NCBI GenBank assembly: GCA_032622095.1
Contig: CP136069.1
Location: 104,064,278 to 104,128,277, forward strand
From: Siphonodentalium dalli
Lineage: Eukaryota > Mollusca > Scaphopoda > Gadilida > Siphonodentaliidae
Direction: 5' to 3'
Length of the DNA stretch: 64,000 bases
The position numbers and the translations under genes were made by a program. Below the pieces are notes generated by a model. The model saw only the letters and a program-made list of their open reading frames with translations. It was not told the origin of the DNA and searched no databases. Below, piece by piece: positions 1,986 through 40,512 of the stretch. Every line of letters begins with the position of its first letter. Within the stretch, counting starts at the first letter, position 1.

Positions 1986-3245
1986 TGATTGTCAAATTTG
2001 CAAGTTCATCGCCAATAGTGAGCTGTCTACAGTATTATCAGTCACTGTATCAGACATTTTGGATGGCTCTTCGCCCATGCCATTTCTTACCTCCAGTACA
2101 TGGCATTCGACTCAACAGGACTGTCCAGACCTGCGGCGTGTTTTTGCCCATCTGTCTCAAGGTACCAGACCTTCAAAAAAGATGACAAATATTCGTGATG
2201 TGAAACCCTACCTTCAAGTAGCTACTGTTGGTCATCACGGTCTACTAGTTGCCAAACAGACTACAAAATTTCAGCCTACAGGCCAGCTAATTATTTGTCA
2301 CCGCTCTTCATCTACGTTTTCAGCATCCCACGATGTCTCAGTTGAAGAGGCTGTTCCATCGCTATTTCTATGCTCTCGATGCTGACCAAATAATTGAAAC
2401 AGTTTCCCAGGATTGTGCACAGTGTGCCGCCATGGCACAGCTTCCAACTGAAATTCCTCAGTTCAGCACCTCACCTTCTACACCTGTTCTTGGTGCATCT
2501 TTTGCCTGTGATGTGATGTGTAGGGCCCGTCAAAATATCTTCATGGTGCGCGAAGCCCTGACGTCCCACCATTGCCCGTCTCATACCTAACGAGCTGAGT
2601 GCTACATTAAGAGATGCAATTGTGGACTGCACTGCAGAACTTAAAGCTTACGAGGGTGCTGTGATTCGTGCGGATGGCTCTCCAGCATTTCAGTGTCTTG
2701 TCAACGACCGCGGTCTAAAATCACATGGAGTTTCAATCGAGGTAGGTCATCTTCTCAATAAGAACAAGAATCCTGTTGCTGAAAAGGGAATTCAAGAACT
2801 AGAAGGAGAACTAAAGCGAAGGTTCCCGGATGGTGGTCCCATCACCCTTACTGCTCTTTCTACTGTGGTGGCCATGCTGAATACCAGAGTGAGAACCCGG
2901 GGTTTGAGCTCAAAAGAAATGCTTCTCCAGCGTGATCATCTTACACACAAACACCTAGAAGTTTCAGACTCAGAGTTGGCATCTGCACAGTATACCACCA
3001 GACAGCTCAATCACGAACCAAGTTCCAGGAGTAAAGCTCCCCGAGGCCATTCACCTGCCATCACATCAGTTTGTCCCGGAGACTTAGTCTACTTGAAACA
3101 GAGCGCTGGCAAGCATAAGAGTCGAGAGCAATACATAGTCACTAAATGTGACGAGAGGTTTGAGTATATAAGAAAGTTCACAGGTTCACAGTTCAGATCA
3201 CGTGAGTATCCCGTTAAATGGTCTAACATCTATCTTCAAAGTACC
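1986..3245 (+). pseudogene. Gypsy pol: integrase, frameshifted
   Basis: DDE-type strand-transfer enzyme that would insert the cDNA. The region starts with a linker, then an HHCC zinc-finger-like part with CAQC (2414-2425). The core carries D at 2510-2512 (FACDV), D at 2673-2675 (RADGSP) and E at 2781-2783 (PVAEKGIQ). There are exactly 35 residues between the second D and the E, so the D-35-E spacing is intact. Frameshifts lie near 2335 and near 2565. After the core come VVAMLNTRVR and LSSKEML, then a small C-terminal module GDLVYLK...EQYIV...YPVKW, comparable to the GPY/F-type module of Gypsy integrases. Confidence 0.88.
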
Positions 3246-3507
3246 GTACTGCAACTCTTCTGTTGCCACTACACCTGCAATTCTTACTGGCCAATCTGAC
3301 CCTTATGCATCAGATGGTTCTGATAGTGATTATGACGTCTACATTCAATATCATGTTCCTCCCCATCTACCCAATACCCAACCCTCTGTGGACTCCTCAC
3401 TTCCAACCAATACCCAACCTTCTGTGGACCCGTCACATCCTGCTCGACCTATGCGTCTTCGCACTCAACCCCAATGGCTCAGGTCAGGTGATTGGGACGT
3501 ATTCTAG
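3246..3507 (+). pseudogene. Gypsy pol: C-terminal tail with short internal duplication
   Basis: The frame changes near 3240 and runs to the stop at 3505-3507. The tail is Asp/Ser- and Pro-rich and low in complexity. It contains two near-identical copies of NTQPSVD (about 3376-3430), i.e. an internal tandem duplication of about 50 bp. It ends in a basic/aromatic motif RPMRLRTQPQWLRSGDW, a type of ending seen in Gypsy polyproteins of this group. No enzymatic role is implied. Confidence 0.6.
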
Positions 3508-3631
3508 CAGGGAGTAGTTATTACACACTCTAAAACAAAAGTTTTTCATACTTTTACCTTTCTCACTTTGAATTTAATTTTTGATCACAGGCACGAGAAC
3601 AAAACAGCTTACGTGTAAATATTTTATTTTT

Positions 3632-7404: not shown

Positions 7405-9434
7405 AAAAAGACAGTCAATGACTGTGGAGACGCTCACCAGACTCTAAAGACTAGGAATACTGGGACTCTGAAGACCATAAGAGTTAGTACTTGTCAAATT
7501 CACTTAAAACAAGTAGTCATAAAGAGGGACGTAGCCTAGAGGGTCTCTGTTGAGCAGTGGGATGTCCACCATGAAATATGGTCCAGATCACTCCACCCCA
7601 CATAGTATGCTCCCTCTCAACTGAAGCCAACACACGCCCAAGTTCGTAAAATTACTTTGGACATGTTGGAATTTTACAACTGATACCTCAAGCTGTCCTA
7701 ACTGTGGCAAAGTTACAACCTGACATGCCCCCTTTTTTAATGGTGGACCGTATTCAAACAAATTTTGATCCCAACTCTCCATAGGCCATATACACCAAAT
7801 GCCATTTCTTGATTGATCGAACCCATTTTAACAAATCTGTAACCCAGTCCCAAGTAACACAAGGACCCTCCATACTGGTTACTACATAAAGGTTAAATAG
7901 GACTGATGGCTCTTGAGGAGCCATTTTAAGAATTACTATGGGGGAAGAGTTATGTCCCTGGTCGCACCCCTATTTGACCTGGTGAACCCATTTCAAAAAA
8001 TATGAATCCCAGTCACCCACGGACTCTCTATACCAAAATGTATACTAAATATGCCAAATGGTTCTTGAAAAGATGTTTTAAAAATAACTAATGAGGGAAA
8101 GAATTATGCCCGTGGCTCTGACAAATTCTGAATCAAATCTGAATCCCAGTCATCCATACCAAATATAAGCTGAATAGGCCTGATGGTTCTTGTTAGGAAG
8201 ACATTTTAAGAATTACAATGGATGGACAAGTTATGTCCCTGGCCCCGCCCTTATTTGACCAGGTGACCTCATTTTAACACATCTGTATCCCTGTCACCCA
8301 AGAACCTTCCATGCCAATTATAAGCTAAATAACCCCGATGATTCTTGAGAAGATGTTTTAAAAATTACTATGGATGGAAAGAGTTAGGTCCCTAGCTATG
8401 CCACTTTTTTGACCATGTGACCCCCCATTTGAACAGAACTGAATCCCAGCCACCAAGGGACCACCCACACAAAATATGTCTCAATTCTTCATCTCAGGTA
8501 AGCTACGAAAAATGCCTCCTTCTTTCTCATCCAGTTTCCCATAAGTAATCGCCTGAGAAAACAGGTATTTTGTTTTACTGGCCTAACTGTCAGATTCATC
8601 ATTCACACTTAGCCTTGGGATTTTGTTATCATAAGCCATAGGTCATTTGTATACAAACTCTCTAACAGGCAGAGAATTTTAGGCTATTAATAAAAGGAGC
8701 TGTCATTCCAATCAGATTTTGTTAACACTGCCATTTCATGTATTACTTTATAATCAATGTGACTTCTATATGGTGTTAAGTAAACATTATGTGATTGCAG
8801 GCACCTTCCTCATATCCCATAGAGCTCTGAGTTTCTGCTGTTTGCATGTTCTTGATTTTAGACTGATTTAAACCAAATTTGGTTGAGTCACTGGTGGATG
8901 TTATAATGGTGTTATTTTTTTTTAAATTGAGCAAGAAATTAATCTCAACTAAAATAAAAAAAATTAATTTGAAAAAAAAAAATTGTTCGTTTTTTGTTTT
9001 CAAATCAATTTTGTTTTTATTTTTGTTAAATTGAACAAGGATTTTTTTTTTTACGAGTTGTGTCCCTGGCTTTGTCCCTATTTAACCCAGTGACCCCATT
9101 TGAACAAATCTGAACCCCAGTCACCCAAGAACCCTCCATGCCAAATATAAGCTAAATCGGCCCAATGGTTCTTGAGAAGTCATTCTATGAATTACTATGG
9201 AGGAATAGAGTTATATCCCTGCTTTCGCAACTATTTGACCCAGTGACCTCATTTGAACAAATCTGAATGTGAGTCACCTCGGGAACATCTACACCAAATA
9301 TGAATCCATTCGGTCTTATGGTTCCGAAGAAGAAGATGTTTAAAGAATTGTTGACGTACGGATGGACGGACGGACGGACGGACGGATGGACGGACGAGGA
9401 GTGATGACTATAACTTCGTCTCAGGTGAGCTAAA
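7405..9434 (+). mobile_element. Pearl/Helentron-like non-autonomous element, copy 1 (~2.0 kb)
   Basis: The left end carries the 13-nt odd palindrome CAGTCAATGACTG (7412-7424) and a subterminal GCTCACC (7432-7438). The right end has an ACGG microsatellite (about 9354-9397) followed by GTGATGACTATAACTTCGTCTC and GGTGAGCTAAAAA. GGTGAGC (9424-9430) is the inverse of the 5' subterminal motif. The interior holds degenerate tandem units of about 155-160 bp (phrases such as TTTGACC-GGTGACC, CCAGTCACCCAAG, TTCTTGAGAAG) plus a T/A-rich run at 8920-9050. A tandem-repeat core, ACGG microsatellite and 3' hairpin region match the bivalve 'pearl' elements, which have been related to Helentron/HINE elements. 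No transposase or helicase is encoded. The left arm of the 3' hairpin seen in other copies is deleted here. Confidence 0.7.
9351..9399. repeat. ACGG-type microsatellite of pearl-like copy 1
   Basis: Runs of GGAC/ACGG with two GGAT variants, following TTGTTGACGTACGGATGG. In this element family the tract always sits just before the 3' terminal segment. Confidence 0.9.
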
Positions 9435-11151
9435 AAGTGGCAGCAGAGACTCCAGACAAGATGGCGTCCATCGTGGCGGCCATTTTTATTATATGCATCA
9501 GGTCTCTTTGATCGCCGTTATAGTAAAGATATTATCATATGCGGTCTAGTTTTCCGCTCGATTCGTTATGCTAATATACAACCCTTACAAATTAGCCAAA
9601 AATCCGACACCAAAATCCGACACAGAAATCGTCTCACCGAACAGATCCAGCAGATAACAACAATACACGCATATGTTGTGGGCATGTGTCATGATAGTGG
9701 AAATGAAATGGGACCATGAATGCACGGCCCCTTCTTTTGGGTATGTTTTAGATTCAGACATGATCGCATGGGTGGCTTTGTTTTCCTGGTATGCTAAGAT
9801 TGTATCTTCCCACCCGTTTGGAAGCCGTTCTTAATAACCTGGATCAGGCGTGTACTATTGGATACTATTACATAAGCCCCCCCCCCCCCAGACTTGGGTG
9901 TAGTCTTAAAGACGACGCCTTTGATAGTTGGTTGATATGTCATACTCGCGCTGGGTGGTGGTCGGTACGGTTCAAGTAAGTCCGAATGCCGTCAACACAA
10001 GGGTGAAATGTTCAACGCGAAGAACAACCAGAGGAATATTACGTTGATGAGATCTTGCAATCAGTTCAACAGTTGGGTACACCAAATGGTTTCTTGGCAA
10101 CATCACCATTCTAACCATTTGCCTGCATTAGACATATTAACTACTGTATGGTCACAAAGGTCATGTTCGAGACTATATATTGTTCTTGAAACACATAGTG
10201 AAATAAATGCACACAGTTCCTTACATTTTCTTGAATGATACCGCCCACAAACTGACACTAACACCCAGAGAGGGTAATAACTATAACGCATACCTTCATT
10301 TTATAAAGACATTATCCTTCAGCCCATCCGACTGTTCTGTGGGAGACAAGCATAGTGTTATACGGAAAAAATTATACGTCTGGTCCAGTTGATTCAGAAC
10401 GGATATGAAACGGATGTGGAAATACAATCTGACCACACCAAAACCACCGACACGCATGACATTCTATATCTGAAACATACACCTGGTGTAGGGGTGTATA
10501 CCATGGCCCCATTTCATTCCCACTATCATGGCGCATGTCCACAAACTAGTACCGCGGGTATTGTTCTTCTCTGTTTGGAGCTCTTCGAGGCGACTGCGGG
10601 ACGTCACACAGATTGCTTAGGATCATGGTCAAGAATTAGTGTGGGTAGTCTGTACATTATGATCTTCTCCTTAACAGATAGGCACCCGTCCTAGTGAATG
10701 AGACAGCTAGCAACCTTCGAAACACTGCTGAAGTTGTCCACGTATGTCAATGCGTTCATATGCCAATGCGAACCTACGGTTATGGCCATTATCGGCGATT
10801 AATTGAGAATGGATTTCGAAATGCCACATCGCGATTATTTATTGTGGGGTTTCGTTTTCCCAGAAGGCTAGGAGCTATGTTATGCGTTTTGATACGTTTT
10901 ATGTTGGAACTAATAGCTAGATGGTTTATGGTTTCGTTTTATCGATATTATGAAAAAATTTGAAATTAGTATGTTAAAATATCGATTTCTTTTCAAATTC
11001 TGGCCGCCAGTTTGGCCACCATCTTGACTATGGGTCCACGGAGGCCACACCCACAGCGGTAGTACCGCCCACTGATAAAAGACTTTATCCATTTTAATAT
11101 TGTCTTTTACCCAAGATCGAATTGGGTGAAGAAGAAGATCACTCGATCTTT
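9435..11151. other. Non-repeat part of the duplicated unit; no supported gene
   Basis: It begins with CAAGATGGCGTCCATCGTGG, then GCGGCCATTTTT, an inverted pair of YY1-like sites. The ATG at 9461 has a strong start context and encodes 16 residues (MASIVAAIFIICIRSL, stop 9509-9511), hydrophobic like a signal peptide. A 76-codon (10008-10238), a 101-codon (10389-10694) and an 89-codon (10694-10963) frame follow. None has a recognisable domain. They are unchanged in copy 2 only because the duplication is recent. A C13 tract lies at 9877-9889. Confidence 0.45.
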
Positions 11152-13826
11152 TCAATTCTTCATCTCAGGTAAGCTACGAAAAATGCCTCCTTCTTTCTCA
11201 TCCAGTTTCCCATAAGTAATCGCCTGAGAAAACAGGTATTTTGTTTTACTGGCCTAACTGTCAGATTCATCATTCACACTTAGCCTTGGGATTTTGTTAT
11301 CATAAGCCATAGGTCATTTGTATACAAACTCTCTAACAGGCAGAGAATTTTAGGCTATTAATCAAAGGAGCTGTCATTCCAATCAGATTTTGTTAACACT
11401 GCCATTTCATGTATTACTTTATAATCAATGTGACTTCTATATGGTGTTAAGTAAACATTATGTGATTGCAGGCACCTTCCTCATATCCCATAGAGCTCTG
11501 AGTTTCTGCTGTTTGCATGTTCTTGATTTTAGACTGATTTAAACCAAATTTGGTTGAGTCACTGGTGGATGTTATAATGGTGTTATTTTTTTTTAAATTG
11601 AGCAAGAAATTAATCTCAACTAAAATAAAAAAAATTAATTTGAAAAAAAAAAATTGTTCGTTTTTTGTTTTCAAATCAATTTTGTTTTTATTTTTGTTAA
11701 ATTGAACAAGGATTTTTTTTTTTACGAGTTTTGTCCCTGGCTTTGTCCCTATTTAACCCAGTGACCCCATTTGAACAAATCTGAACCCCAGTCACCCAAG
11801 AACCCTCCATGCCAAATATAAGCTAAATCGGCCCAATGGTTCTTGAGAAGTCATTCTATGAATTACTATGGAGGAATAGAGTTATATCCCTGCTTTCGCA
11901 ACTATTTGACCCAGTGACCTCATTTGAACAAATCTGAATGTGAGTCACCTCGGGAACATCTACACCAAATATGAATCCATTCGGTCTTATGGTTCCGAAG
12001 AAGAAGATGTTTAAAGAATTGTTGACGTACGGATGGACGGACGGACGGACGGACGGATGGACGGACGAGGAGTGATGACTATAACTTCGTCTCAGGTGAG
12101 CTAAAAAGTGGCAGCAGAGACTCCAGACAAGATGGCGTCCATCGTGGCGGCCATTTTTATTATATGCATCAGGTCTCTTTGATCGCCGTTATAGTAAAGA
12201 TATTATCATATGCGGTCTAGTTTTCCGCTCGATTCGTTATGCTAATATACAACCCTTACAAATTAGCCAAAAATCCGACACCAAAATCCGACACAGAAAT
12301 CGTCTCACCGAACAGATCCAGCAGATAACAACAATACACGCATATGTTGTGGGCACGTGTCATGATAGTGGAAATGAAATGGGACCATGAATGCACGGCC
12401 CCTTCTTTTGGGTATGTTTTAGATTCAGACATGATCGCATGGGTGGCTTTGTTTTCCTGGTATGCTAAGATTGTATCTTCCCACCCGTTTGGAAGCCGTT
12501 CTTAATAACCTGGATCAGGCGTGTACTATTGGATACTATTACATAAGCCCCCCCCCCCCCCCAGACTTGGGTGTAGTCTTAAAGACGACGCCTTTGATAG
12601 TTGGTTGATATGTCATACTCGCGCTGGGTGGTGGTCGGTACGGTTCAAGTAAGTCCGAATGCCGTCAACACAAGGGTGAAATGTTCAACGCGAAGAACAA
12701 CCAGAGGAATATTACGTTGATGAGATCTTGCAATCAGTTCAACAGTTGGGTACACCAAATGGTTTCTTGGCAACATCACCATTCTAACCATTTGCCTGCA
12801 TTAGACATATTAACTACTGTATGGTCACAAAGGTCATGTTCGAGACTATATATTGTTCTTGAAACACATAGTGAAATAAATGCACACAGTTCCTTACATT
12901 TTCTTGAATGATACCGCCCACAAACTGACACTAACACCCAGAGAGGGTAATAACTATAACGCATACCTTCATTTTATAAAGACATTATCCTTCAGCCCAT
13001 CCGACTGTTCTGTGGGAGACAAGCATAGTGTTATACGGAAAAAATTATACGTCTGGTCCAGTTGATTCAGAACGGATATGAAACGGATGTGGAAATACAA
13101 TCTGACCACACCAAAACCACCGACACGCATGACATTCTATATCTGAAACATACACCTGGTGTAGGGGTGTATACCATGGCCCCATTTCATTCCCACTATC
13201 ATGGCGCATGTCCACAAACTAGTACCGCGGGTATTGTTCTTCTCTGTTTGGAGCTCTTCGAGGCGACTGCGGGACGTCACACAGATTGCTTAGGATCATG
13301 GTCAAGAATTAGTGTGGGTAGTCTGTACATTATGATCTTCTCCTTAACAGATAGGCACCCGTCCTAGTGAATGAGACAGCTAGCAACCTTCGAAACACTG
13401 CTGAAGTTGTCCACGTATGTCAATGCGTTCATATGCCAATGCGAACCTACGGTTATGGCCATTATCGGCGATTAATTGAGAATGGATTTCGAAATGCCAC
13501 ATCGCGATTATTTATTGTGGGGTTTCGTTTTCCCAGAAGGCTAGGAGCTATGTTATGCGTTTTGATACGTTTTATGTTGGAACTAATAGCTAGATGGTTT
13601 ATGGTTTCGTTTTATCGATATTATGAAAAAATTTGAAATTAGTATGTTAAAATATCGATTTCTTTTCAAATTCTGGCCGCCAGTTTGGCCACCATCTTGA
13701 CTATGGGTCCACGGAGGCCACACCCACAGCGGTAGTACCGCCCACTGATAAAAGACTTTATCCATTTTAATATTGTCTTTTACCCAAGATCGAATTGGGT
13801 GAAGAAGAAGATCACTCGATCTTTTC
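11152..13826. repeat. Direct tandem duplication, copy 2
   Basis: Near-identical second copy; the match to copy 1 ends at GATCTTTTC (13826 against 11153). The offset changes from 2,671 to 2,673 because the poly-C tract is C15 (12548-12562) here and C13 (9877-9889) in copy 1. It includes a second copy of the pearl 3' end with its ACGG tract (about 12024-12070) and end near 12107. Such high identity implies a very recent event, or an assembly duplication. Confidence 0.95.
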
Positions 13827-14300
13827 GACCATCCCGGGCGCTTTTCGCCCAAGCACTCTCCTCCGATCGACTTCCGAAGTGAATACTTCAGCACTTGCCC
13901 TTATGTTAGTTAACTAGCCGAAACAGACTCATATATATGATTCGTGGAAATTTTTATCTTTTAAACAGTTTGATTGAAAAAAAAAATGTTAATTCTAGTT
14001 TTGATTTTTTTTTATTGAATTCTGATCTGCCGTTGAACAAATCAAAAACATTTTTTTTTAAATTAAAAAAAAAACATTTAAATTAAAATTTGTTTCTAAG
14101 TTTTTAATTTTCATTTTAGATTTTTATATTGAAACTGTTTACATTTTTCTTTAATTTAATTTTTTTTTTAATTTAATTTAATTTAAAAAACATAATTTAA
14201 TTAAAAAAAATTCAATTTCTTTTTAGATTGAAATTTCTTGCTCAAAAATTTTGAAAATCCAATTAAATATAATTTTATTTGTTTAAACATTTTAATTAAC
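13827..14300. other. Flank of the duplication and AT-rich low-complexity run
   Basis: Starts with a small GC hairpin, GGGCG (13836-13840) and CGCCC (13846-13850). From about 13970 to 14295 the DNA is almost purely A/T, with alternating poly-A and poly-T blocks and TTTAATTT units. A phrase TTTCTTGCTCAA near 14237 is the reverse complement of ATTGAGCAAG-type phrases inside pearl copies, so part of the tract may derive from such an element. No gene. Confidence 0.55.
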
Positions 14301-14490
14301 AAGACAGTCAATGACTGGGGTCGCTCATAGTTAGAACTTGTCATAATCGCTTTAAAAGAAGTAGTTCTAAACAGGACATGTGGCTAGAGAGGATTCATGT
14401 GTGTAGATCGGTGAATATCCACCTTTTAAATTACCAACTGTACACTACTGATCACCCCCCCCCCCCCCACTCATCCAGCTCATAACAAGT
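14301..14490 (+). mobile_element. Pearl-like element, 5' fragment
   Basis: AAGACAGTCAATGACTGGGGTCGCT at the left end has the same 13-nt palindrome (14305-14317) as the copies at 7412 and 22235. It is followed by matching phrases (AACTTGTCA, AAGTAGT, AACAGG, TCCACC). The similarity fades near a C tract (about 14454-14469), just before the LINE reading frame. No ACGG tract or 3' end follows. Confidence 0.65.
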
Positions 14491-14506
14491 CCCCTGATGA
14501 ACTAGA

Positions 14507-15676
14507 ATGTACGCAATGCCTGTTTTAATACTTGCGTTGCTAATTGATTTATGCCTCCATCATATATATTGTTATTGCCTGATAGCCCAACCCTCCCCAA
14601 TAAAACACTACGATCACCTCTTGCCCACCGGTTTGCCTATAACTGGGATCGGCCCTTTGTGGCCGAATCCTATTGTAATGATTAATATTATGACTTATCG
14701 GGCAAGAGTTGGTGTGTTCTATACGCGTGCAGTAAGTACAAAGGGAAAGAAACTAAATATGTTGTGTTCACTTAGCCTTCTGTCATTCCTTGCACTACGT
14801 TCCATTGGTATAACGCAAAACTTGACTTTCCTCATTGTTATGAAGTATTATATGCTGAATAACGATAGTATTCTTCCCAAATATATTTTTGATAGGAATA
14901 ATTTCAGAGTCACTGCAAACTTTAGCAAACTTTCCTTCAATGTTGCAATAAACACAATATCTCGATCATCACTAGTAACTTTATCACACTTATGTCGTGC
15001 AATTTATGAAATAATGAAAAGTTTATTAATGAAATCTTGGAGCGTTCACCCAAATCCTGGACCAAACGCACATACACTATCGATTATGTGCCTCAATGTA
15101 CAAAGCCTATTGCCAAAGATTGATACCATTATTGCCGAATGTCAAAATGATGATATACTTGCATTTACTGAGACCTGCGCATGGCTATCAGATTCAACCT
15201 CGGACGAGGAGTTGACTATACCGGGATTCAACAGCCCTGAACGACTTAATCGTCCTACTCTCGGTGGAGGTATTGCGATTTATGTCCGCAACTCACTTCA
15301 TTTCAAAAGGCGAAAAGATATCGAAATACTCGGCCTTGAACACATGTGGTTAGAAATCTTCACGCATACGAACAGTTTCCTTTTTGGAACCTTCTATAGA
15401 CCTCCGAATTCACCTGTAGAACTCTGGGATAAAATATACACTTCACTTGATGGAGCGATGGATACAAAAGAATCCAGAAATCACACAATTGTTACCGGAG
15501 ATTTCAATTGTAACCAACTGTGCACTGAACCAAAACTAACAAGATATATATGTGGGAAGTTTGGTATGAAACAGCTTATAGAACAACCTACCTACTTCAC
15601 TGAAAATTCCCGATCACTCTTAGACCTGTTTTTTTTTCAAATAAACCGGATTTTGTACAGTCGTGTGAGATTTTAG
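14507..15676 (+). pseudogene. CR1-like LINE ORF2 N-terminal part: 2A-like motif and AP endonuclease
   Basis: A 389-codon frame. Residues 1-178 are poorly conserved with hydrophobic stretches (MPVLILALLIDLCL). Residues 179-186 are SVHPNPGP (15041-15064), in the place where many CR1-clade ORFs have a 2A-like DxExNPGP. From residue ~190 it is an EEP/AP endonuclease that would nick target DNA: NVQSLLPK (N197), ETCAW (E222), GGGIAIYVR, GTFYRPP, VTGDFN (D332, N334) and SLLDLFF. The frame is lost at T9 (15629-15637), and the end of the endonuclease reads in the next frame to about 15735. The start at 14507 is simply the first ATG of the frame; the element's true 5' end is not visible. Confidence 0.85.
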
Positions 15677-15734
15677 ATGCAGAATTGGTTCGATATCACT
15701 GCCCAATCGTACTTACTTTAAATATTTCTAAAGG

Positions 15735-16331
15735 GACATCAAAAGAAGAATATGGAAATACAACGAGGCAAATTTCAGTGCAATGAATGGAGAATTGCAA
15801 ACGTGGGGCTCCGAGAATCCGTTGAAACATGTGAATTATACAGAACTTGCGACGGTGATAACTAACAAAATAAATGAAGTCGCGATAAAACACATTCCAA
15901 ACAAATTTGTTACAATTAGAACAGATGAACACGAATGGATGTCAGGCCACATTCGTCTCCTTATGAGGCAACGCAAACGATTATATGTCAAAGCAAAAAA
16001 GAATACGACATTAAATGCATGGGCTAAATATAAAACCAAGCGAAATGAAGTAATATCATCTATCAGAACTGCCAAGCGACTGGAAATGGAAAAAAAACAA
16101 AAACTCCTCGGCAGTTCTTTTACTGATTCCTCAGTGTGGTGGAAAACTCTTAATAGACTCATGGCCCCAGACCACAAACCTATTCCGTCACTTTGCGAGG
16201 ACAACAACGTATACACAGATAACAATTCTAAATCGGAAATATTAAATAATTATTTTTGCTCACATCGTCCCTGCCCGAATCTGACAAAAAAGAACCACCG
16301 CTATTATCTAGATCTAAAAATTGTACATTGA
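15735..16331 (+). pseudogene. CR1-like LINE ORF2 linker between endonuclease and RT
   Basis: After a second frame change near 15735 the reading resumes with RRIWKYNEANFSAMNGEL, a well-known post-endonuclease block of CR1/jockey-type ORF2 (W-x-Y near its start). It continues through a basic region (LLMRQRKRLYVKAKK) and WWKTLNRLM. Near 16260 the frame shifts again, and the last residues of this frame (to 16331) are out-of-frame noise. It lies directly downstream of the endonuclease part and upstream of the RT start, so order and spacing are as expected. Confidence 0.82.
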
Positions 16332-16546
16332 AACTTATTAAGATTACACACAAAGATGTATTGGAATCCCTGACAAGTGTTAAAGTAGCAAAGGCCAGTG
16401 GCGATGACGGTATCAGCCCAAAAATTCTAAAGAATTGCGCAACGGCCCTAGCAAGTCCTATGTGCTATATATTTAACGAATTGTTAAAACATTCCTATTT
16501 CCCTGATGAGTGGAAGAGAGCAAACGTTTGTCCCATCTTTAAATGA
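16256..16546 (+). pseudogene. CR1-like LINE ORF2: start of reverse transcriptase, cut off
   Basis: Contains KASGDDGISPKILKNCA, then FNELLKHSYFPDEWKRANVCPIFK. These are the first conserved blocks of non-LTR RT (the G-x-DGI-P-LK block and W-x-A-x-V-x-PIFK block). The catalytic FADD box and all later RT blocks are missing, because at 16544-16546 the sequence passes into the left end of another element (TGAAAGTGTCAATGACAC). The TGA is contributed by that element or by the junction. Confidence 0.85.
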
Positions 16547-16660
16547 AAGTGTCAATGACACTGTAGCTCAACTTGGAAAGGGAATAATTTAATGTATTAC
16601 AGTCAATGGAGCGATTATGAATGTGCAAAGTTGAATGTCTAATACTAGTTTATAGACATG

Positions 16661-19600
16661 AAGAGAAAAGTTAAATCCAAGATGGCTGCTGACGGCCATG
16701 TCTTCGGCCGAATGACCCCAAAATGATTGTATCCCATCCGCATGTCATCGTTAACATCCATGACAAATTTTATGACGATCAGACTAAAGGTACGACCTGT
16801 AGCCCATGCTAAAGAATTTAGTCATACAAAGAGTAAAATCCAAGATGGCTGCTGGCGGCCATGTCTTCGGCCGAATGACCCCAAAATGATTGTATCCCAT
16901 CCGCATCTCATCGTTAACATCCATGACAAATTTTATGATGATCAGACTAAAGGTACGACCTGTAGCCCGTGCTAAAGGATTTAGTCATACAAAGAGAAAA
17001 ATCCAAGATGGCTGCTGCGGTCATGTTTTTTGGCCGAATGACCCCAAAATTAATCGTTCCCATCTACATGTCAATATTAACATCCATGATAAATTTTATG
17101 ATGATCAGACGAACAGTACGACCTGTAGCCTGTGCTAATGGATTGAATTTTGAAATCAAAGATGGCCACTGGCGGCCATGTTTTTCATCCAAATGACCCC
17201 AAAATGACTCGTTCCCATCTACATTCCAATTTCAACAGCCACGAAAAATTTCATGATGATCAGACTCAAGGTACGACCTGTAGTCCGTGCTAAAGGATTT
17301 AGTCATACAAAGAGTAAAATCCAAGATGGCTTCTGGTGGCCATGTTTTTTGGCCGAATGACCCCAAAATGACTCGTTCCCATTATTAACATTCATGAGAA
17401 ATTTTATGATGATCAGACTAAAGGTACGACCTGTAGCCTGTGCTAATGGATTGAATTTTGAAATCAAAGATGGCCACTGGCGGCCATGTTTTTCATCCGA
17501 ATCACCCCAAAATGTCTCGTTCCCATCTACATTACAATTTCAACAGCCATAAAAAAAATTATGTTGATCAGACTAAAAGTACGACCTGTAGCCCGTGCTA
17601 AATGATTTAGTCATACAAAGAGTAAAATCCAAGATGGCTTCTGGTGGCCATGTTTTTTGGCCGAATGACCCCAAAATGACTCGTTCCCATCTACATGTCA
17701 TTGTTAACATTCATGACAAATTTTATGATGATCAGACTAAAAGTACGACCTGTAGCCCGTGCTAAATGATTTAGTCATACAAAGAGTAAAATCCAAGATG
17801 GCTGCTGGCGGCCATGTTTTTTGGACAAATGACCCCAAAATGACTCGTTCCCATCTACATGTCATTGCTAACATCCATGACAAATTTTATGATGATCAGA
17901 CTAAAGGTACGACCTGTAGCCCGTGCTAAAGGATTTAGTCATACAAAGAGTAAAATCCAAGATGGCTGCTGCGGTCATGTTTTTTGGCCGAATGACCCAA
18001 AATTAATCGTTCCCATCTACATGTCAATATTAACATCCATGATAAATTTTATGATGATCAGACGAACAGTACGACCTGTAGCCTGTGCTAATGGATTGAA
18101 TTTTGAAATCAAACATGGCCACTGGCGGCCATGTTTTTCATCCAAATGACCACAAAATGACTCGTTCCCATCTACATTCCAATTTCAACAGCCACGAAAA
18201 ATTTCATGATGATCAGACTCAAGGTACGACCTGTAATGACTCGTTCCCATCTACATGTCATTATTAACATTCATGACAAATTTTATGATGATCAGACTAA
18301 AGGTACGACCTGTAGCCTGTGCTAAAGGATCTAGTCATACAAAGAGTAAAATCCAAGATGGCTGCTGGCGGCCATGTTTTTTGGCCGAATGACCTCAAAA
18401 TGACTCGTTCCAATCTACATGTCATTGTTAACATCCATGACAAATTTCATGATGATCAGACTAAAGGTACGACCTGTAGCCTGTGCTAATGGATTGAATT
18501 TTGAAATCAAAGATGGCCACTGGCGGCCATGTTTTTCATCCGAATCACCCCAAAATGACTCGTTCCCATCTACATTACAATTTCAACAGCCATAAAAAAA
18601 TTTATGATGATCAGACTAAAAGTACGACCTGTAGCCCGTGCTAAATGATTTAGAAATACAAAGAGTAAAATCCAAGATGGCTTCTGGTGGCCATTTTTTT
18701 TGGCCGAATGACCCCAAAATGACTCGTTCCCATCTACATGTCATTATTAACATTCATGACAAATTTTATGATGATCAGACTAAAAGTACGACCTGTAGCC
18801 CGTGCTAAATGATTTAGTCATACAAAGAGTAAAATCCAAGATGGCTGAAGGCGGCCATGTTTTTCGGCCAAATGACCCCAAAATGACTCGTTCCCATCTA
18901 CATGTCATTGTTAACATCCATGACAAATTTTATGATGATCAGACTAAAGGTACGACCTGTAGCCTGTGCTAAAGAATTTAGTCATACAAAGAGTAAAATC
19001 CAAGATGGCTGCTGGCGGCCATGTTTTTTGGCCGAATGACCCCAAAATTACTCGTTCCCATCTACATGTCATGCAAAGAGTAAAATCCAAGATGGCTGCC
19101 AGCGGCCATGTTTTTTGGCCGAACGACCTCAAAATGACTCGTTCCCATCTACATGTCAATATTAACATCCATGACAAATTTCGTAATGATCAGACGAACA
19201 GTACGACCTGTAGCCCACGCCAATGGATTGAATTTTGAAATCCGAAATGGACACCAGCGGCAATGTTTTTTGGCCGAATGACCCCAAAATGACTCGTTCC
19301 CATCTACATGTCAATGTCAACATTCATGACAAATTTCATAAAGATCAGACTAAAGGTACGACCTGTAGCCCGCGCCAAAGGATTTAGTCATGCAAAGAGT
19401 AAAATCCAAGATGGCTGATGGCGGCCATGTTTTTTGGCCGAACAACCCCAAAATGACTCGTTCCCATCTACATGTCATTGTTAACATCCATGACAAATTT
19501 CATGAAGTTCCGATCAAAACTACGACCTGTAGCCTGCGCCAAAGGATTTAGTCATGCAAAGAGTAAAATCCAAGATGGCTGCTGACGGCCATGTTTTTTG

Positions 19601-19865
19601 GCCGAACGACCCCAAAATGACTCGTTCCCATCTACATGTCAATATTAACATCCATGACAAATTTCATGATGATCAAACGAACAGTACGACCTGTAGCCCG
19701 CGCCAATTGATTGAATTTTGAAATCCAAGATGGCCACCAGCGGCCATGTTTTTTGGCCGAATGACCCCAAAATGACTCGTTCCCATCTACATGTCAATGT
19801 TAACATTCATTCAAAATTTCATAAAGATCAGACCAAAGGTACGACCTGTAGCCCGCGCCAAAGGA
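16661..19865 (+). repeat. Satellite-family tandem array 1 (core of the Helentron-like element)
   Basis: Head-to-tail monomers, measured as 163 bp between GATCAGAC landmarks at 16777 and 16940 and 155 bp between 17103 and 17258. Landmarks in each are CCAAGATGG, GGCGGCCATG, GACCCCAAAATGACTCG, CCATCTACAT, ATGATGATCAGAC and TACGACCTGTAGCC. The 155-bp subtype reads ATGGATTGAATTTTGAAATC where the other reads AAGGATTTAGTCATACAAAG. About 20 monomers fit by length. The last five (after about 19200) keep CCGCGCC/CCACGCC where earlier ones read CCGTGCT. Short open frames inside are by-products of the repeat. Confidence 0.95.
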
Positions 19866-19925
19866 AATTGTTGACGGACACACGGACACACGGACACACG
19901 GACGACGGACGCCAAGCCATGGCAA

Positions 19926-19956
19926 TAGCTCAAACTTACAAAAGTAAGTTGAGCTA
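19926..19956 (+). repeat. 3' terminal hairpin of Helentron-like element
   Basis: TAGCTCAAACTTAC (19926-19939), loop AAAA, GTAAGTTGAGCTA (19944-19956): a 13-bp stem with one extra A in the left arm. A hairpin next to the 3' end acts as the termination signal in Helitron-type rolling-circle elements. Confidence 0.8.
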
Positions 19957-19957
19957 A

Positions 19958-20177
19958 TAACAGTAAGTAATTTCTTGAGCTGTATACATTCATATACATC
20001 GAAATGTACATTCTAGTTTTGTCTGTATGAAACGGTCACCATTCATTATTTCATACGTGTAGGAGATGGCTTAAGATAAGCATTATGCTTACTGCCAAAT
20101 CCCATTATAACCATCAATATCTCTCATCATCATACCGTGAATTTTGTACATTATATTGGTTAAAATAAAATATGTTT
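19958..20177. other. Short flank; possible LINE 3' end
   Basis: No RT sequence resumes here. The last part, ATTGGTTAAAATAAAATATGTTTAAAC (about 20155-20181), resembles the 3' end of the LINE fragment at 6546-6566 (ATTAAAATATGTTTAAA). It could be the 3' tail of the interrupted LINE with the intervening RT deleted, or an independent LINE end. This is a weak, short similarity. Confidence 0.35.
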
Positions 20178-21195
20178 AAACTAACAAGTCCCCTCCCGAC
20201 CGGACTCCCAAGTTCGTAAATACTTTTGTGCACCTCCCTTAGGTTCTAATCCGACACCTCAAACTTTTGGAAATTTCCAATCTCACAAGCACCTTTTTTA
20301 ACGAGAGGCCGATCACGATCGGCAAAAGTTAACCCATCCCTTGGTGATAGTAAATTACTATGACCGGAATCATGAGAGTTTTGAACATGATTTATAGAGT
20401 ATACTGTTATGTACTATTATAGACAAATGTACAACACAAATTATTGGAATTTATGGGTCACTCACATCAAATTCTACCAACAACAGTCAACAACAATTAT
20501 ATAGCAGAGCTGTCAACAAATCACAGGGCATTGTTTATGTTGAAGGCTGCCATCTCTGTTAAACCAATAACATTTATAACGACCTCTGTAGAGTGATATA
20601 CTCAGCTGTGCAATGCAGCACAGATGTTCTAGTCTACTGTTAATATCATTTGATGTGTATTGTTGAAACTTATTTTTTTAATCAGATACCATAGCTTTCT
20701 TTATCTGAACATTGGCATAAGAGACATCAGAAAATAATATAGCCTTATCAATAGCTAAGTAGTCCAAAGGCATGGGATGGAATTGGTGAATTGGGTTTAA
20801 TGTCACTCCAAACAAATTTACCAGCACATAACACAAGATTTTGGACAGATTTAAACCAAATTTGGTGTGGTGACTCGGGTAGCCTTGTACCTTGTATTAG
20901 TTATTTCAAATTTTGTTAACTTGAAAAAAAACTTTTTTGCCCCACCATTTTTTGACAGGTTGACCTCATTTTAACAAATATGAATCACAGTCGCCAAAGT
21001 ACCATCCATACTATATGTAAGCTAAATAGTCCAACCTCTCTTGAGAAGACATTTTAAGAATTACTATAGAGACAAATAGTTATGTCCCTGGTACGGACGG
21101 ACGGACGGTTCAACGAACGGATGGACGGACGGACGAGGAGTGATGACTATATTGACTATAACTCCATCGGAGACTTCGTCTCATGCGGGCTAAAT
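20178..21195 (+). mobile_element. Pearl-like element, 5'-truncated copy
   Basis: The left part shares phrases with copy 1 (CCCAAGTTCGTAAA near 20208 and near 7630; GACACCTCAA). The right part shares CCAAATTTGGT, TGACCTCATTTTAACAAAT, AGTCGCC-AAGTACC and TTGAGAAGACATTTTAAGAATTACTAT. It ends with an ACGG tract (21092-21136), GAGGAGTGATGACTAT, a hairpin GAGAC-TTC-GTCTC (21170-21182) and GGGCTAAATAAAA. The 5' palindrome is absent. The middle (about 20330-20880) differs from copy 1, so the core has been replaced or has diverged. No coding capacity. Confidence 0.65.
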
Positions 21196-21599
21196 AAAAA
21201 ATAAGACCGTTATAACATCTGCCGAGGTACACCGAGGCACCACACCAAATTTGGTTGAAAGCGGTCCAGGGCTCTGAAAGAAAAATCACTTTAATATATC
21301 GAAACCAGAGAACACACATTCGTTTTGCCATTAAATGTGAAAAATATGACAAGTGTCATGCTAAATGAAAAACATTGTTATAATCACGGATACATTTATA
21401 ACATCATGGCGCAAATATAAATCTCAGTATATTATGATTTGATAACACAAAAGTCGTTTCAATTTAACACTGAATGTATGCATGGATATAAAAAGTTAGG
21501 GCGAAGAAAGATGGCAGCAGAACTATCAATGCAGCCATTGGCCATCGGCTAATAATTATTTGATTGGCAGCTGTGGAAAGGTCCATTGCCAAACATATT
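21196..21599. other. Non-coding DNA, nothing recognised
   Basis: Unremarkable sequence between a pearl-like 3' end and a tandem repeat. It includes GAAGAAAGATGGCAGCAG near 21502, a single YY1-like ATGGC context. Overlapping short open frames on both strands lack any domain. Confidence 0.4.
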
Positions 21600-22100
21600 G
21601 CGGGCTAATGTGATACATTTGAACATTTTCCAAGTTAATATACTTTTTTCAAGGGGTGTACGAGAATTATTACCCTTATATATAAAATCTTTAAAAATTC
21701 TGTCCGTCAACAATTCTTTAAACATATTTTTTTTTCGAGCTAATTCGGAACCATTGAAATTTGTCCAGTGTAGTATCAATTTGTCTAGGGTGTACGAGAT
21801 TTCTTTCCCTTGTAAATCCTCCATTCCCTATATAGCGACGGCAATTTTTGCGGGGTAATACGAAACCATTGAAATTTTTCCAGTGTAATTTAAATGTTTC
21901 AATGGATGTACGAGATTTAATATCCTTTTAAATCCTGTCTCATCTATGTAGCCACGGCATATTTTGCGGGCTAATAAAAAATATTGACATTTTCCCAAGG
22001 TTATATCAATTTTTCTAGTGATGTACGTGATGTGTTACCCTTGTAAATCCTTCTTCTCTATATAGCGACGGCATTTTTTGCGGGCTAAAACGAAATACTT
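21600..22100. repeat. Degenerate ~115-bp tandem repeat, 4 units
   Basis: Units begin with GCGGGCTAA-type phrases at 21600, 21735 (CGAGCTAATTCGG), 21850, 21966 and 22080, giving spacings of 135, 115, 116 and 114 bp. Each holds a version of TTGAAATTT-TCCAGTGTAAT, TTTCTAGGGATGTACGAGAT, TACCCTTGTAAATCCT and TATATAGCGACGGCA-TTTT. It shows no similarity I can see to the ~163-bp satellite. It is non-coding. Confidence 0.8.
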
Positions 22101-22230
22101 GTTTCTTGTTCCGTTAACATATATTGAACATGAATACCGGGATACGCCGTGGTATAGCCATATAGAGGAGCAATGGTGTCAAAAAAGGCCAAACATTATA
22201 CAGAGAGGGTAATATGCTGGTATACTAGAC
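22101..22230. other. Short spacer before pearl-like copy
   Basis: Unique-looking sequence; ends TATACTAGAC directly before the AAGACAGTCAATGACTG terminus. Nothing else is recognised. Confidence 0.5.
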
Positions 22231-24596
22231 AAGACAGTCAATGACTGTGGGGTCGCTGACCTGACTGTAAAGACTGAGAAAACCGGGACTCTGAAGACTA
22301 CAACAGTCAGTAATTGTCAAAATCACTTAAGATAAGTAATTATAAACAGGGAAATAGCTGGAGGTTCTCAGATGAGCAAGGCTCTTCACCTTGAAATTTT
22401 CAATTGCACACCACTGACAAATCTCCTACACTTTACCCTTTTTAAACAAGACAACCAGACCACAGTCCTAAGTTCACAAAGTTCCTTTTGCACATCCCTC
22501 TTAAACTTAAAATTTACAACTGGTACCAGTACTTCAATCTCTAGAACTTGGAAATTACCAACCTGACATCGCCAATAAAGTTAAAATTTGTGCCCATTTT
22601 GGTGTGTAACAGTTTAACCCGAAGTAGGAAAATGTGGACTGAAAAATCAAATTTACAACTAATGTTGTATCAGGCATGAATTTCCAACTGTTTAAAATTT
22701 TGATCGTAGTAGGTGGTCAAAACTCCACCCCTCTACACTTCCGCCTCATTGCCCATCACCCAGGCAGCTTAGAAATCAATAGGAATCTATATATTGTTAT
22801 ACCAGTATCAAACAGCATAGATAGAGGTAGGGTGGGTGGTTGAGAGTTAAATCTCTTATCTCTGCCCCTATTTGAACAAACGTGAATCCACATCTATGAG
22901 ATCGATTCATCTAGAAATTTCAAACGGTAGATTTTAAGAGTTAAAGAGAACTGATTTTGCTCAAAAGTTTCCTAAAAATGACCCCATGTATACAAATTTA
23001 AAAACCAGTCACCAAAGGACCCTCCATATCAAACATAAACTAAGTAGGCCCGATGGTTCTTGAGAAGAAGTTGTTTTAAGAGAATTACTATGGAGAGAAA
23101 GAGTTCAAGTATGGCCCTGGCTTCTCACCTATATGACCTGATGAACTCATTTGAACAAATCTGAATGTGAGTCACTTAGGGGACATCCACACCAAAATAT
23201 ATAAACCCATTCGGTCTTTAAAATGTATCTGGAGAAGAAAAAAATTGATGGGCGGATGGAGACATCCCAACAGAGGGATGGATGGGAGAACAGACTGACT
23301 GAGAGACATACAAATTCAATCCAATATACCCCCAATGTTTTCTTTGCAAATCAGGGTATAATGAGTTCAACTGGACAGGTGGTGGTTAAGAATATAATAT
23401 TGGAACAGCCAAGCTTGAATATAGTGTCTGAAATTTGCAGAATGAGGTCCCTAAAGGGTCAATTTAGTAACGCAATTCTGCAATGCGAGCTAGTATCACA
23501 AAATTCACCCTCTGGGGACCTGATTCTGCTTAGGCCTCAACTGCTATGGGAAACATATGAACAGACTGGTGTTCTCCGGTTAAAGTTGGTGATGTGCACC
23601 CATTGGGCACCTCAATTATCCATTTTATCTTCTGAAAATTAAGGGGATATAGAAACTAAACAGAAGGGAAAAGGTAAGTAAAAATGGCAAATTAAGACCC
23701 TATATACTTCCCTGAAGATGAGGCATAAGGAGACTGAGGTCCATGCGGAGTGTATTTGGCGATGCTAGCATACTGTGCAGGGCAGCATCACTAAATTCAT
23801 CCACTGGGGACCTCATTCTTCAAATGTCAGACACACAAGCATTTTATTTTGATTTGATTTTAATGACACACATGGGACATGAGTGCTTAGCAGTTGTTTA
23901 CTGTTTACAACTGTCTGCCATATAACATCTCATTATGACTGTGTGTTATTAACTATCTCTGTCTGGAGCTAATATCACTGGCTGAATCTGCTGGTGGAAG
24001 AGGTGAGCTGGTGGGTTGCTGTTGGTTGGTGGCAGGGTGGTGGTCTGGGTAATGAGGGGGTGATGGAAAGGGACAGTTTCCATGCTATCATTCAAGATTT
24101 TCATAACTCTGTGGATTTTACAATGGTTTTTGTTTTTCAAATTTATTTTTTTCTGGACAGTGGGTGCAGAGTGGGGGTAGGTGCGGGGAGACTTTTTTGT
24201 TTAATTGAGCAAGGATTTAAAAAAAATTTAAGTTATGTCCCTGGCTCGGCCCATATTTGACGCAGTGACCCAATTTGAACAAATCTGAACACCAGTCACC
24301 CAAGAACCCTCCATACCAAATAGTAGCTAAATCGGCCCAATGGTTCTTGATAAGAAGTCGTTCTAAGAATTACTATGGAGGAATAGAGTTATTGCACTGG
24401 TTTCGCAACTTGACCGGGTAACATCATTTGAACAAATCTGAATGTGATTCACCTAGGGAACATCCACACCAAATATGAACCCATTCCGTCTTCCGGTTCT
24501 GGAGGAGAAGATGATTCTTGACGGACGGACGGACGGACGGACGAGGAGTGATGACTATAGCTCCATCGGAGACTTCGTCTCATGTGAGCTAAAAAG
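22231..24596 (+). mobile_element. Pearl/Helentron-like element, most complete copy (~2.4 kb)
   Basis: Left end AAGACAGTCAATGACTGTGGGGTCGCT with the palindrome at 22235-22247. Right end: ACGG tract (24520-24544), GAGGAGTGATGACTATAGCTCC, inner stem GAGAC-TTC-GTCTC (24569-24581) nested in an outer stem TAGCTC (24558-24563) and GAGCTA (24586-24591), then AAAAA. The interior has the ~155-bp-type phrases at 22860-23230 and 24240-24480, separated by ~1 kb of unrelated sequence. That insert includes a pair of ~90-bp repeats (about 23441-23531 and 23733-23822) sharing GAGGTCC and CACTGGGGACCT-ATTCT. A degenerate GATGG tract near 23248-23285 looks like an older internal element end. No gene. Confidence 0.72.
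24520..24591 (+). repeat. ACGG microsatellite and 3' terminal nested hairpin
   Basis: Six consecutive GGAC/ACGG units, then two nested stems (5 bp GAGAC/GTCTC inside 6 bp TAGCTC/GAGCTA). It is the best-preserved 3' end of this family in the window and defines the consensus end ...GAGCTAAAAA. Confidence 0.8.
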
Positions 24597-25189
24597 TATT
24601 CAGGTATACCAGTGTTATGCTCTATAGTATACGGAGGTATACCCACGTTCTTTTTCATATGGGTAACCCTTGTTTGGCAAAACCATTTTGATCTAGGGGA
24701 AAAGAACTTCAGCTGGAAAGTGATAACTGTCAACTCCATGACAGATGAGCATGTCATAACCTCTCAAAATTAAAGCAGTCGTGACAATGATAACTAGCAT
24801 GGACGACTCCAGTTGACATTATAAGTGAGGATGACGATCCCTCCCCCTGGAATCCGGCATCCGGCTTAAAAATGACCCCCGGCATCCGGAATACTCCATA
24901 ACAGAGAGACGGCATTTCACTAAATTTATTGAAAATAGACTGAGTAATGAAGCAGAAGTTGACATTGTGCATTGGAATCAGTCTCCATATTGGCTAGTAA
25001 TTATTTAATTTAGCAGCCTGATTGAAAGATTCAACTTTTTACTAAAGTTATAATCGGATTTCACAAATACATTGGTGCAGAATAATGTTGAAACATGCAA
25101 TGGAGTGCAATTGAAAAACCGGTGTGTATAATTTATTATGAAGAAACAAACCATTCAAAGTCCGGTGACGTGACACAAGTTATAATTAC
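24597..25189. other. Non-coding spacer before the long satellite array
   Basis: Unique-looking sequence with a small internal repeat, GGCATCCGG (near 24848 and 24881), and palindrome-like GTATACC phrases near 24606-24642. No palindromic 5' terminus of the Helentron type is present before the satellite begins, so the array is not obviously the core of a bounded element here. Confidence 0.55.
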
Positions 25190-28100
25190 GTCCGAATGAC
25201 CCCAAAATGACTCTTTCCCATCTACATTCAAATTTCAACAGCCATGATAAATTTCATGATGATCAGACTAAAGGTACGACCTGTAGCCCGTGCTAAAGGA
25301 TTTAGTCATACAAAGAGTAAAATCCAAGATGGCTGCTGGCGACCATGTTTTTTGGCCGAATGACCCCAAAATTACTCGTTCCCATCTACATGGCATTGTT
25401 AACATCCATGACAAATTGTAAGATGATCAGACTAAAGGTACAACCTGCAGCCCGTGCTAAAGGATTTAGTCATACTAAGAGTAAAATCCGAGATGGCTAC
25501 TGGCGGCCATGTTTTTTGGCCGAATGACCCCAAAATTACTCGTTCCCATCTACATGTCATTATTAACATTCTTGACAAATTTTATGATGATCAGAATAAA
25601 AGTAGGACCTGTAGCCCGTGCTAAAGAATTTAGTCATACAAAGAGTAAAATCCAAGATGGCTGCTGGTGGCCATGTTTGTTGGCCGAATGACCCCAAAAT
25701 GACTCGTTCCCATCTACATTCCAATTTCGACAGCCATAAAAAAATTTATGATGATCAGACTAAAGGTACGACCTGTAGCACGTACTAAAGGATTTAGTCA
25801 TCCAAAGAGTAAAATCCAAGATGGCTGTTGGCGACCATGTTTTTTGGCCGAATGACCCCAAAATTATTCGTTCCATCTACATGTCATTGTTAATATCCAT
25901 GACAAATTTTATGATGATCAGACTAAAGGTACGACCTGCAGCCCGTGCTAAAGAATTTAGTCATACAAAGAGTAAAATCCAAGATGGCTGCTGGTGGCCA
26001 TGTTTTTTGGCCGAATGACCCCAAAATTACTCGTTCCCATCTATATGTCAATATTAACATCCATGACAAATTTCATGATGATCAGACAAACAGTACGACC
26101 TGTGGCCTGTGCTAATGGATTAAATTTTGAAATCCAAGATGGCCGCTGGCGGCCATGTTTTTTGTCCGAATGACCCCAAAATGAATCGATTCCCATCTAC
26201 ATTCCAATTTCGACAGCCATAAAAAAATTTATGATGATCAAACTAAAGGTACGACCTGTAGCACGTACTAAAGGATTTAGTCATCCAAAGAGTAAAATCC
26301 AAGATGGCTGCTGGCGGCCATGTTTTTTAGCCAAATGACCCCAAAATGACTCGTTCCCATCTACATGTCATTATTAACATTCTTGACAAATTTTATGATG
26401 ATCAGACTAAAGGTACGACCTGTAGTCCGTGCTAAAGGATTTAGTCATACAAAGAGTAAAATCCAAGATGGCTGCTGGCGACCATGTTTTTTGGCCGAAT
26501 GACCCCAAAATTACTCGTTCCCATCTACATGGCATTGTTAACATCCATGACAAATTGTAAGATGATCAGACTAAAGGTACAACCTGCAGCCCGTGCTAAA
26601 GGATTTAGTCATACAAAGAGTAAAATCCGAGATGGCTACTGGCGGCCATGTTTTTTGGCCGAATGACCCCAAAATTACTCGTTCCCATCTACATGTCAAT
26701 ATTATTATCCATAACAAATTTCATGATGATCAGACAAACAGTACGACCTGTGGCCCGTGCTAATGGATTCAATTTTGAAATCCAAGGTGGCCGCTGGCGG
26801 CCATGTTTTTTGTCCGAATGACCCCAAAATGACTCGTTCCCATCTACATTCCAATTTCGACAGCCATAACAAATTTTATGATGATCAGACAAAGGTACGA
26901 CCTGTAGCACGTACTAAAGGATTTAGTCATCCAAAGAGTAAAATCCAAGATGGCTGCTGGTGGCCATGTTTTTTGGCCGAATGACCCCAAAATTACTCGT
27001 TCCCATCTATATGTCAATATTAACATCCATGACAAATTTCATGATGATCAGACGAACAGTACGACCAGTGGCCTGTGCTAATGGATTAAATTTTGAAATC
27101 CAAGATGGCCGCTGGCGGCCATGTTTTTTGTCCGAATGACCCCAAAATGACTCGTTCCCATTTACATTCCAATTTCGACAGCCATAACAAATTTTATGAT
27201 GATCAGACTAAAGGTACGACCTGTAGCATGAACTAAAGGATTTAGTCATCCAAAGAGTAAAATCCAAGATGGCTGCTGGCGGCCATGTTTTTTGGCCAAA
27301 TGACCCCAAAATGACTCGTTCCCATCTACATGTCATTATTAACATTCTTGACAAATTTTATGATGATCAGAATAAAAGTAGGACCTGTAGCCCGTGCTAA
27401 AGAATTTAGTCATACAAAGAGTAAAATCCAAGATGGCTGCTGGTGGCCATGTTTGTTGGCCGAATGACCCCAAAATTCCTCGTTCCCATCTATATGTCAA
27501 TATTAACATCCATGACAAATTTCATGATGATCAGACGAACAGTACGACCAGTGGCCTGTGCTAATGGATTAAATTTTGAAATCCAAGATGGCCGCTGGCG
27601 GCCATGTTTTTTGTCCGAATGACCCCAAAATGACTCGTTCCCATCTACATTCCAATTTCGACAGCCATAACAAATTTTATGATGATCAGACTAAAGGTAC
27701 GACCTGTAGCATGAACTAAAGGATTTAGTCATCCAAAGAGTAAAATCCAAGATGGCTGCTGGCGGCCATGTTTTTTAGCCAAATGACCCCAAAATGACTC
27801 GTTCCCATCTACATGTCATTATTAACATTCTTGATAAATTTTATGATGATCAGACTAAAAGTAGGACCTGTAGCCCGTGCTAAAGGATTTAGTCATACAA
27901 AGAGTAAAATCCAAGATGGCTGCTGGCGACCATGTTTTTTGGCCGAATGACCCCAAAATTATTCGTTCCATCTACATGTCATTGTTAACAACCATGACAA
28001 ATTGTAAGATGATCAGACTAAAGGTACAACCTGCAGCCCGTGCTAAAGGATTTAGTCATACAAAGAGTAAAATCCGAGATGGCTACTGGCGGCCATGTTT

Positions 28101-39591: not shown

Positions 39592-39610
39592 CAGTGTTCG
39601 CGCTGGACCG

Positions 39611-40490: not shown

Positions 40491-40512
40491 GCTACCGACA
40501 GCGCGAACACTG

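Follow-up and report, generated by a model that had tools for sequence, protein, structure and literature searches.

A probable satellite-bearing HINE inside a LINE, beside sister elements and a long array of the same satellite family, in Siphonodentalium dalli

We analysed a stretch of 64,000 nucleotides (hereafter the window) from the scaphopod mollusc Siphonodentalium dalli (NCBI GenBank assembly GCA_032622095.1, contig CP136069.1, positions 104,064,278 to 104,128,277 of the forward strand). Between positions 16546 and 19957 of the window lies a repeat-rich unit, here called element A, which is enclosed by the parts of a long interspersed nuclear element (LINE). This LINE in turn splits another element, B4, and a long satellite array, S, begins 5 kb from A. 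Element A very probably belongs to the HINEs, non-autonomous rolling-circle elements of the Helentron type such as Cg_HINE and pearl. It lies on the minus strand, with its 5′ end at about 19957 and its 3′ end near 16546 according to the published layout convention (PMC7492417; this and all other published accounts are cited from excerpts).

The core of A is a tandem array (16.67-19.87 kb) of monomers of about 164 and about 155 bp, in which 20 monomer anchors were counted. On the plus strand, the 11-mer TAGCTCAACTT occupies 16564-16574, and AAGTTGAGCTA, which is its exact inverse, occupies 19946-19956; each occurs once in the window, and these subterminal inverted repeats match at 11 of 11 bases. 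To the left of the array, about 90 bp without monomer similarity are followed by the 11-mer and by a palindrome that reads GTGTCAATGACAC on the plus strand (16549-16561). To the right, a hairpin is formed by TAGCTCAAACTTAC (19926-19939) and GTAAGTTGAGCTA (19944-19956), with arms of 14 and 13 bases owing to one extra base, and the final 11 bases of this hairpin form an exact inverse copy of the left 11-mer. This right end (51 nt) folds at -10.8 kcal/mol, a value that 0 of 200 shuffles equalled. Read on the minus strand, A consists of a 5′ subterminal inverted repeat (subTIR; TAGCTCAACTTAC, 19944-19956), a complementary inverted repeat (IR; GTAAGTTTGAGCTA, 19926-19939), a microsatellite of the GTCC/GTGT type (19873-19911), the tandem core, a 3′ subTIR that is the exact inverse of the 5′ one (AAGTTGAGCTA in element orientation, 16564-16574) and, two bases beyond it, a 3′ terminal palindrome (GTGTCATTGACAC, 16549-16561). 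In the same orientation, A is flanked by TTA on its 5′ side and by TTT on its 3′ side, and LINE sequence is missing there. A comparison of all six frames of A with Pfam gave no match at the curated cut-off.

The minus-strand reading corresponds to the order published for Cg_HINE of Crassostrea gigas, namely a 5′ subTIR, a complementary IR, a microsatellite (GTCY or GTCC in several), tandem repeats, a 3′ subTIR and a palindrome (PMC7492417). This comparison is one of layout. An initial annotation, made from the letters alone, had described an array of about 20 monomers between exact 11-bp inverses, with a microsatellite before the hairpin, and had compared the architecture to Helentron, HINE and pearl elements. 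Our analysis bears out these points, the last one module by module against the published layout. The annotation had also named a 5′ palindrome and a 3′ hairpin. Both structures are present, but the two ends have to be exchanged, because A on the minus strand gives exactly the Cg_HINE order (PMC7492417), and the true 5′ end is the right one at 19957.

In Cg_HINE, the 5′ subTIR measures 11-12 bp and the tandem repeats mostly 140-180 bp (PMC7492417). The averages of the Cg_HINE clusters are about 2-5 monomers per array, the longest array reaching 29.3, compared to 20 in A, and their microsatellite lies 10-500 bp from the array, compared to 7 bp in A (PMC7492417). Unlike Cg_HINE as described there, A contains two sub-arrays of one two-type monomer with an out-of-register joint. 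Central repeats like those of A, some of them satellite-like, also occur in the bivalve elements pearl (CvA, CvE and CvG, with about 160 bp), MgE and DTC84 (PMC7492417, PMC11136912), although pearl has up to six core repeats and A has 20 (PMC7492417). HINE/DINE-1 elements of mites and flies resemble A in their subterminal inverted repeats, 3′ palindrome and lack of coding capacity, and perhaps in their T-rich targets. It is for the mite and fly elements that empty sites and autonomous partners were demonstrated (PMC4067079).

Furthermore, the window harbours a sister family of HINEs, B, whose members all lie on the minus strand. Both ends are present in B1 (22231-24592), in B2 (7408-9433) and in the split B4, which consists of a 3′ part (14299-14495) with the hairpin core GTCATTGAC and a remainder with the 5′ end (20195-21193), where subTIR, IR and microsatellite are found. 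B3 (11152-12104) corresponds to the 5′ part of B2, from which it was copied by a tandem duplication. Over the whole window, the 9-base hairpin core turns up at four sites (7414, 14307, 16551 and 22237 in plus-strand coordinates), each of them on the minus strand, so that the palindrome core of A is common to three 3′ ends of family B. In the first 25.3 kb, five 5′ ends were found in which TAGC(T/C) is followed by a GTCC microsatellite within about 120 bases, again all on the minus strand (9432, 12103, 19956, 21192 and 24591). B1 and B2 are 80% identical over 170 bp in their 3′ parts and 80% over 423 bp in their 5′ parts, and the 5′ end of B1 folds into an IR hairpin that 3 of 200 shuffles equalled. 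With similar ends and different cores, A and B resemble group 2 of Cg_HINE, in which related ends enclose unrelated cores; some Cg_HINE cores are kin to a classical satellite (PMC7492417). A distant homology of the A and B cores was also considered and rejected, since the Z-scores (-0.6 to 3.4 in 20 comparisons) were not convincing.

Three further observations concern the surroundings of family B. A tandem duplication of about 2.67 kb with 99.8% identity (8481-13826) has its left break inside B2. The flanks of B1 at 22215-22235 and 24592-24620 are near-inverted copies (CTGGTATACTAG and AGTATTCAGGTATACCAG) and look as if B1 had entered a palindromic element. Between B4 and B1, a separate 115-bp tandem repeat is present in 3.2 copies (21729-22095).

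The LINE that encloses A lies on the plus strand. Its 5′ part (14496-16545) holds an APE endonuclease in the first open reading frame (ORF; PF03372, E 5.5e-12) and further ORFs up to A. The next two ORFs had no Pfam match, and the last one ends at the left terminus of A, in what looks by eye like the approach to the reverse transcriptase (RT) domain. The putative 3′ end of the LINE (19958-20181, 224 bp) was assigned by its position and by a direct repeat, not by homology. This 13-bp repeat, TAACAAGTCCCCT, is found as a target-site duplication at 14483-14495 and 20182-20194 and is the sole common run of at least 12 bases between 14299-14700 and 19958-20840. In comparisons with B2, both halves of B4 exceeded 200 shuffles (47.5 versus a maximum of 25 for the left half, 43 versus 35 for the right), and the left half did so against B1 as well (39.5 versus 32). 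The stretch 19958-20181 did not rise above its shuffles (23.5 versus a maximum of 30 with B1, 20.5 versus 24 with B2). The order of events is B4, followed by the LINE, which split B4 at 14495/20182, with A inside the LINE. The idea that the sequence to the right of A is interior sequence of B4, moved into the LINE together with A, was dropped, as the 13-bp repeat brackets 14496-20181.

The LINE segment including the RT is missing where A lies, and A does not appear to be a clean insertion. In a motif search of 14-25.3 kb there was no YRP-type match. The [FY].DD matches lie within monomers of the satellite, and A.D.[VI] matched loosely at 20770 and 21186, which we take as chance. Of the bounded element in the initial annotation, the termini stand, but the host LINE is not seen to be cleanly interrupted, the RT region being absent.

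Within A, the array is divided into a 5′-proximal sub-array (19068-19865) and a 3′-proximal one (16666-19071), the latter being similar to S. A private variant, GCCAA, follows the anchor in 5 of 5 cases from 19068 rightwards. In the left part, GCTAA was found at 14 of 15 anchors and GCCAA at 0 of 15, while S has the T form at 189 of 234 anchors and the C form at 0 of 234; unreadable anchors were listed separately and number 1 in the left part of A and 45 in S. Across the joint at about 19070 the anchor spacing is 251 instead of about 164, and the out-of-register joint permits a 5-bp overlap, GTCAT, read by eye (19068-19072). We infer that this joint was made by a deletion.

The satellite array S (25192-64000, plus strand) has 234 anchors and an abrupt left edge, spans at least 38.8 kb and runs off the window, its right edge lying outside. 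For the comparison with A, 17 of 19 monomer intervals were used in A (spacings of 76 and 251 were left out) and 231 of 233 in S (1093 and 280 were left out). For consensus sequences and trees, long and short types were assigned by sequence, and S was sampled twice, with 30 of its 66 short and 40 of its 165 long monomers. Both types, the short one being without 9 bp, are present in A and S. The left part of A is 97.6% (long) and 91.0% (short) identical to the S consensus, and the right part 90.3% and 83.3%, respectively. By sequence, the core of A and S are the same satellite family, in agreement with the initial annotation, which had equated the core monomer with that of the downstream satellite. 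Among the monomers compared, the identity of A to S was never above 94.0%, so that no recent exchange is seen. At the left edge of S (25192), the 3′ flank of A had no match beyond weak 25-bp ones inside monomers (E 1.5).

In the trees of short monomers, both samplings recovered a clade of S and the left part of A without the right part (99/94.8 and 100/95.2), and a single clade of all short A monomers was rejected (p-AU 0.031 and 0.029). The long monomers gave no clear answer, with p values of 0.061 and 0.033 for A and of 0.076 and 0.081 for S as one clade, and the short monomers of S form one side of a weakly supported branch (88/82 and 35/85). These tests do not settle the direction of descent between A and S. 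A tree that covered 17 monomers of A and 231 of S required 7 changes of the A/S label, compared to a shuffled mean of 16.6.

As to S itself, its 165 long and 66 short monomers follow recurring orders, and identity is somewhat higher at lags of 4, 12 and 24 monomers. This pattern suggests higher-order repeats. At 39592-40512 S is interrupted by an insert of 921 bp that carries terminal inverted repeats of 14 bp (CAGTGTTCGCGCTG) and is flanked by an 8-bp direct repeat (TCTATATG); it is a candidate non-autonomous element of the hAT type.

It is most improbable that the boundaries of A are coincidental and surround an ordinary satellite fragment with no mobile element. The 11-bp pair alone proves little, because at least one such pair, with copies 1-6 kb apart and a hairpin at each, was contained in 17 of 30 shuffles of the first 25 kb; the real sequence has 24 among the matches listed. 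Window-wide statistics of inverse pairs were for this reason dropped as support for the boundaries. The position at the array edges, however, is unusual: when the array flanks (123 and 125 bp) were subjected to 5000 dinucleotide shuffles, an inverse match of at least 11 bases between them appeared in 22. Since pairs are common window-wide, we put weight on this edge position, on the published order of the modules and on the end motifs in common with sister family B, all of which argue against chance. Several observations nevertheless weigh against the proposed identity and nesting of A. Its left end folds weakly (-3.8 kcal/mol, equalled by 14 of 200 shuffles), matches below the Pfam cut-off occur within A (lowest E 1.2e-5), which we take as spurious products of the repeats, and one copy of A only was seen in the window. 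The end motifs that A has in common with family B comprise the 9-base core, TTAGCTCA and the microsatellite, all of them short, and the flank matches between A and B extend over 47 bp at 78.7% for the longest, which is largely microsatellite, and 58 bp at 70.7% for the second. In B2, the 5′ end forms no stable IR hairpin (117 of 200 shuffles were as good), and the 3′ hairpin does not stand out from shuffles either (88 of 200 as good). With respect to the nesting, the right half of B4 stays within shuffles when compared to B1 (37.5 versus a maximum of 46), a scan of B4 joins gave 158.5 near the direct repeat versus 160.5 at best, and no RT was found in the six frames of 19958-25190, so that a clean insertion of A is not shown.

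The missing RT and the joint in the array can be accounted for in several ways. It is quite possible, if tentative, that A arose as a deletion chimera from two HINEs of the same family and orientation that resided in one LINE. In that case a microhomology-mediated deletion, using GTCAT at about 19068-19072, would have fused the 3′ part of one HINE with the 5′ part of its partner, and the RT between them would have been lost. Fusion by one deletion would explain both the missing RT and the out-of-register sub-arrays, and it refines rather than excludes the assignment of A as a HINE. The RT was not found, yet the LINE retains its 5′ part and is bracketed by the 13-bp direct repeats, and the monomer subfamily switches sharply at about 19070 (5 of 5 versus 0 of 15 anchors, 1 of 15 being unreadable). 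The 5-bp overlap at the joint also fits, but slippage alone can make out-of-register joints, as indicated by a second one (spacing 76) inside the left part. Similarly, the short monomers of the left half group with S and away from those of the right half (99/94.8 and 100/95.2), whereas one base that S lacks is common to the short monomers of both halves (ATTG in 6 of 6, versus 0 of 65 in S), and the right-part monomers as one group were neither rejected (p 0.20 and 0.18) nor recovered. Moreover, two insertions of the same family in one LINE are required. An assembly misjoin, in which reads of two A-type loci were merged inside the array, is rather improbable: repeat arrays favour such errors and no RT was found to the right of A, but the 13-bp repeat and the B4 halves bracket the whole unit, unlike a merge of two unrelated loci. 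A single insertion of A, with the LINE segment lost at or after insertion or with a LINE copy already internally deleted, e.g. by template switching, seems somewhat unlikely. Copies of non-LTR (LTR, long terminal repeat) elements commonly carry internal defects, and the exactly matching subTIRs speak for one element, yet the gap in the LINE coincides with the termini of A. In addition, HINE insertions are described, in the excerpted account, as leaving the target site unmodified (PMC4067079).

As a single copy of A was seen, we infer the mobility of this HINE from Helentron biology. By analogy, the Rep/Helicase of an autonomous Helentron elsewhere would act in trans, starting at the 5′ end of A (PMC4067079, PMC8268682). 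One strand, including the monomer array, would be copied up to a stop at the 3′ palindrome, and the copy would be pasted into a T-rich site. In this way A may carry satellite monomers round the genome. The long array S very probably represents a stand-alone expansion of the monomer family of A, related by descent and without recent exchange. A more far-reaching scenario, in which the 5′ sub-array of A is an older, element-private branch, the 3′ sub-array and S are younger, S has grown from HINE-borne monomers and two HINEs have fused via their satellite cores, is unlikely.

We also searched IMG/VR viral contigs with the ends of A, with the monomer and with the ends of B, and obtained 0 matches in each case; for the ends of A, this is as expected for non-viral DNA. 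Among genome contigs, the monomer matched one stretch, where the eight best rows show the same 20-21 bp; we regard this as chance. A literature text search with the terminal sequences of A and a piece of the monomer yielded, among the matches listed, papers unrelated by title.

Satellite-like arrays carried by HINEs, with cores kin to a classical satellite, were reported previously (PMC7492417). Element-related satellite forms are found in PMC8268682 and PMC11136912, and abrupt satellite junctions and Helitron-borne arrays in PMC5139131. In C. gigas, satellites occur in element-borne and stand-alone forms, as do A and S; compared to these stand-alone satellites, S has 234 anchors and runs off the window (PMC8268682). 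The initial annotation had regarded the shared core as the most noteworthy point, but this pattern has been published (PMC7492417, PMC8268682). HINE/satellite sharing is already known in oysters, and the nested history and the apparently fused array are local details of the present case. Here, one window contains HINEs nested through a LINE, and one satellite family is found both in an apparent mobile element and in a long stand-alone array. The case bears on the question whether long satellites grow from element-borne arrays or are captured by elements, and on whether satellite cores make HINEs prone to deletion and fusion.

Near the left edge of the window (361-3517), several ORFs resemble, by eye, pol remnants of an LTR-type retrotransposon.
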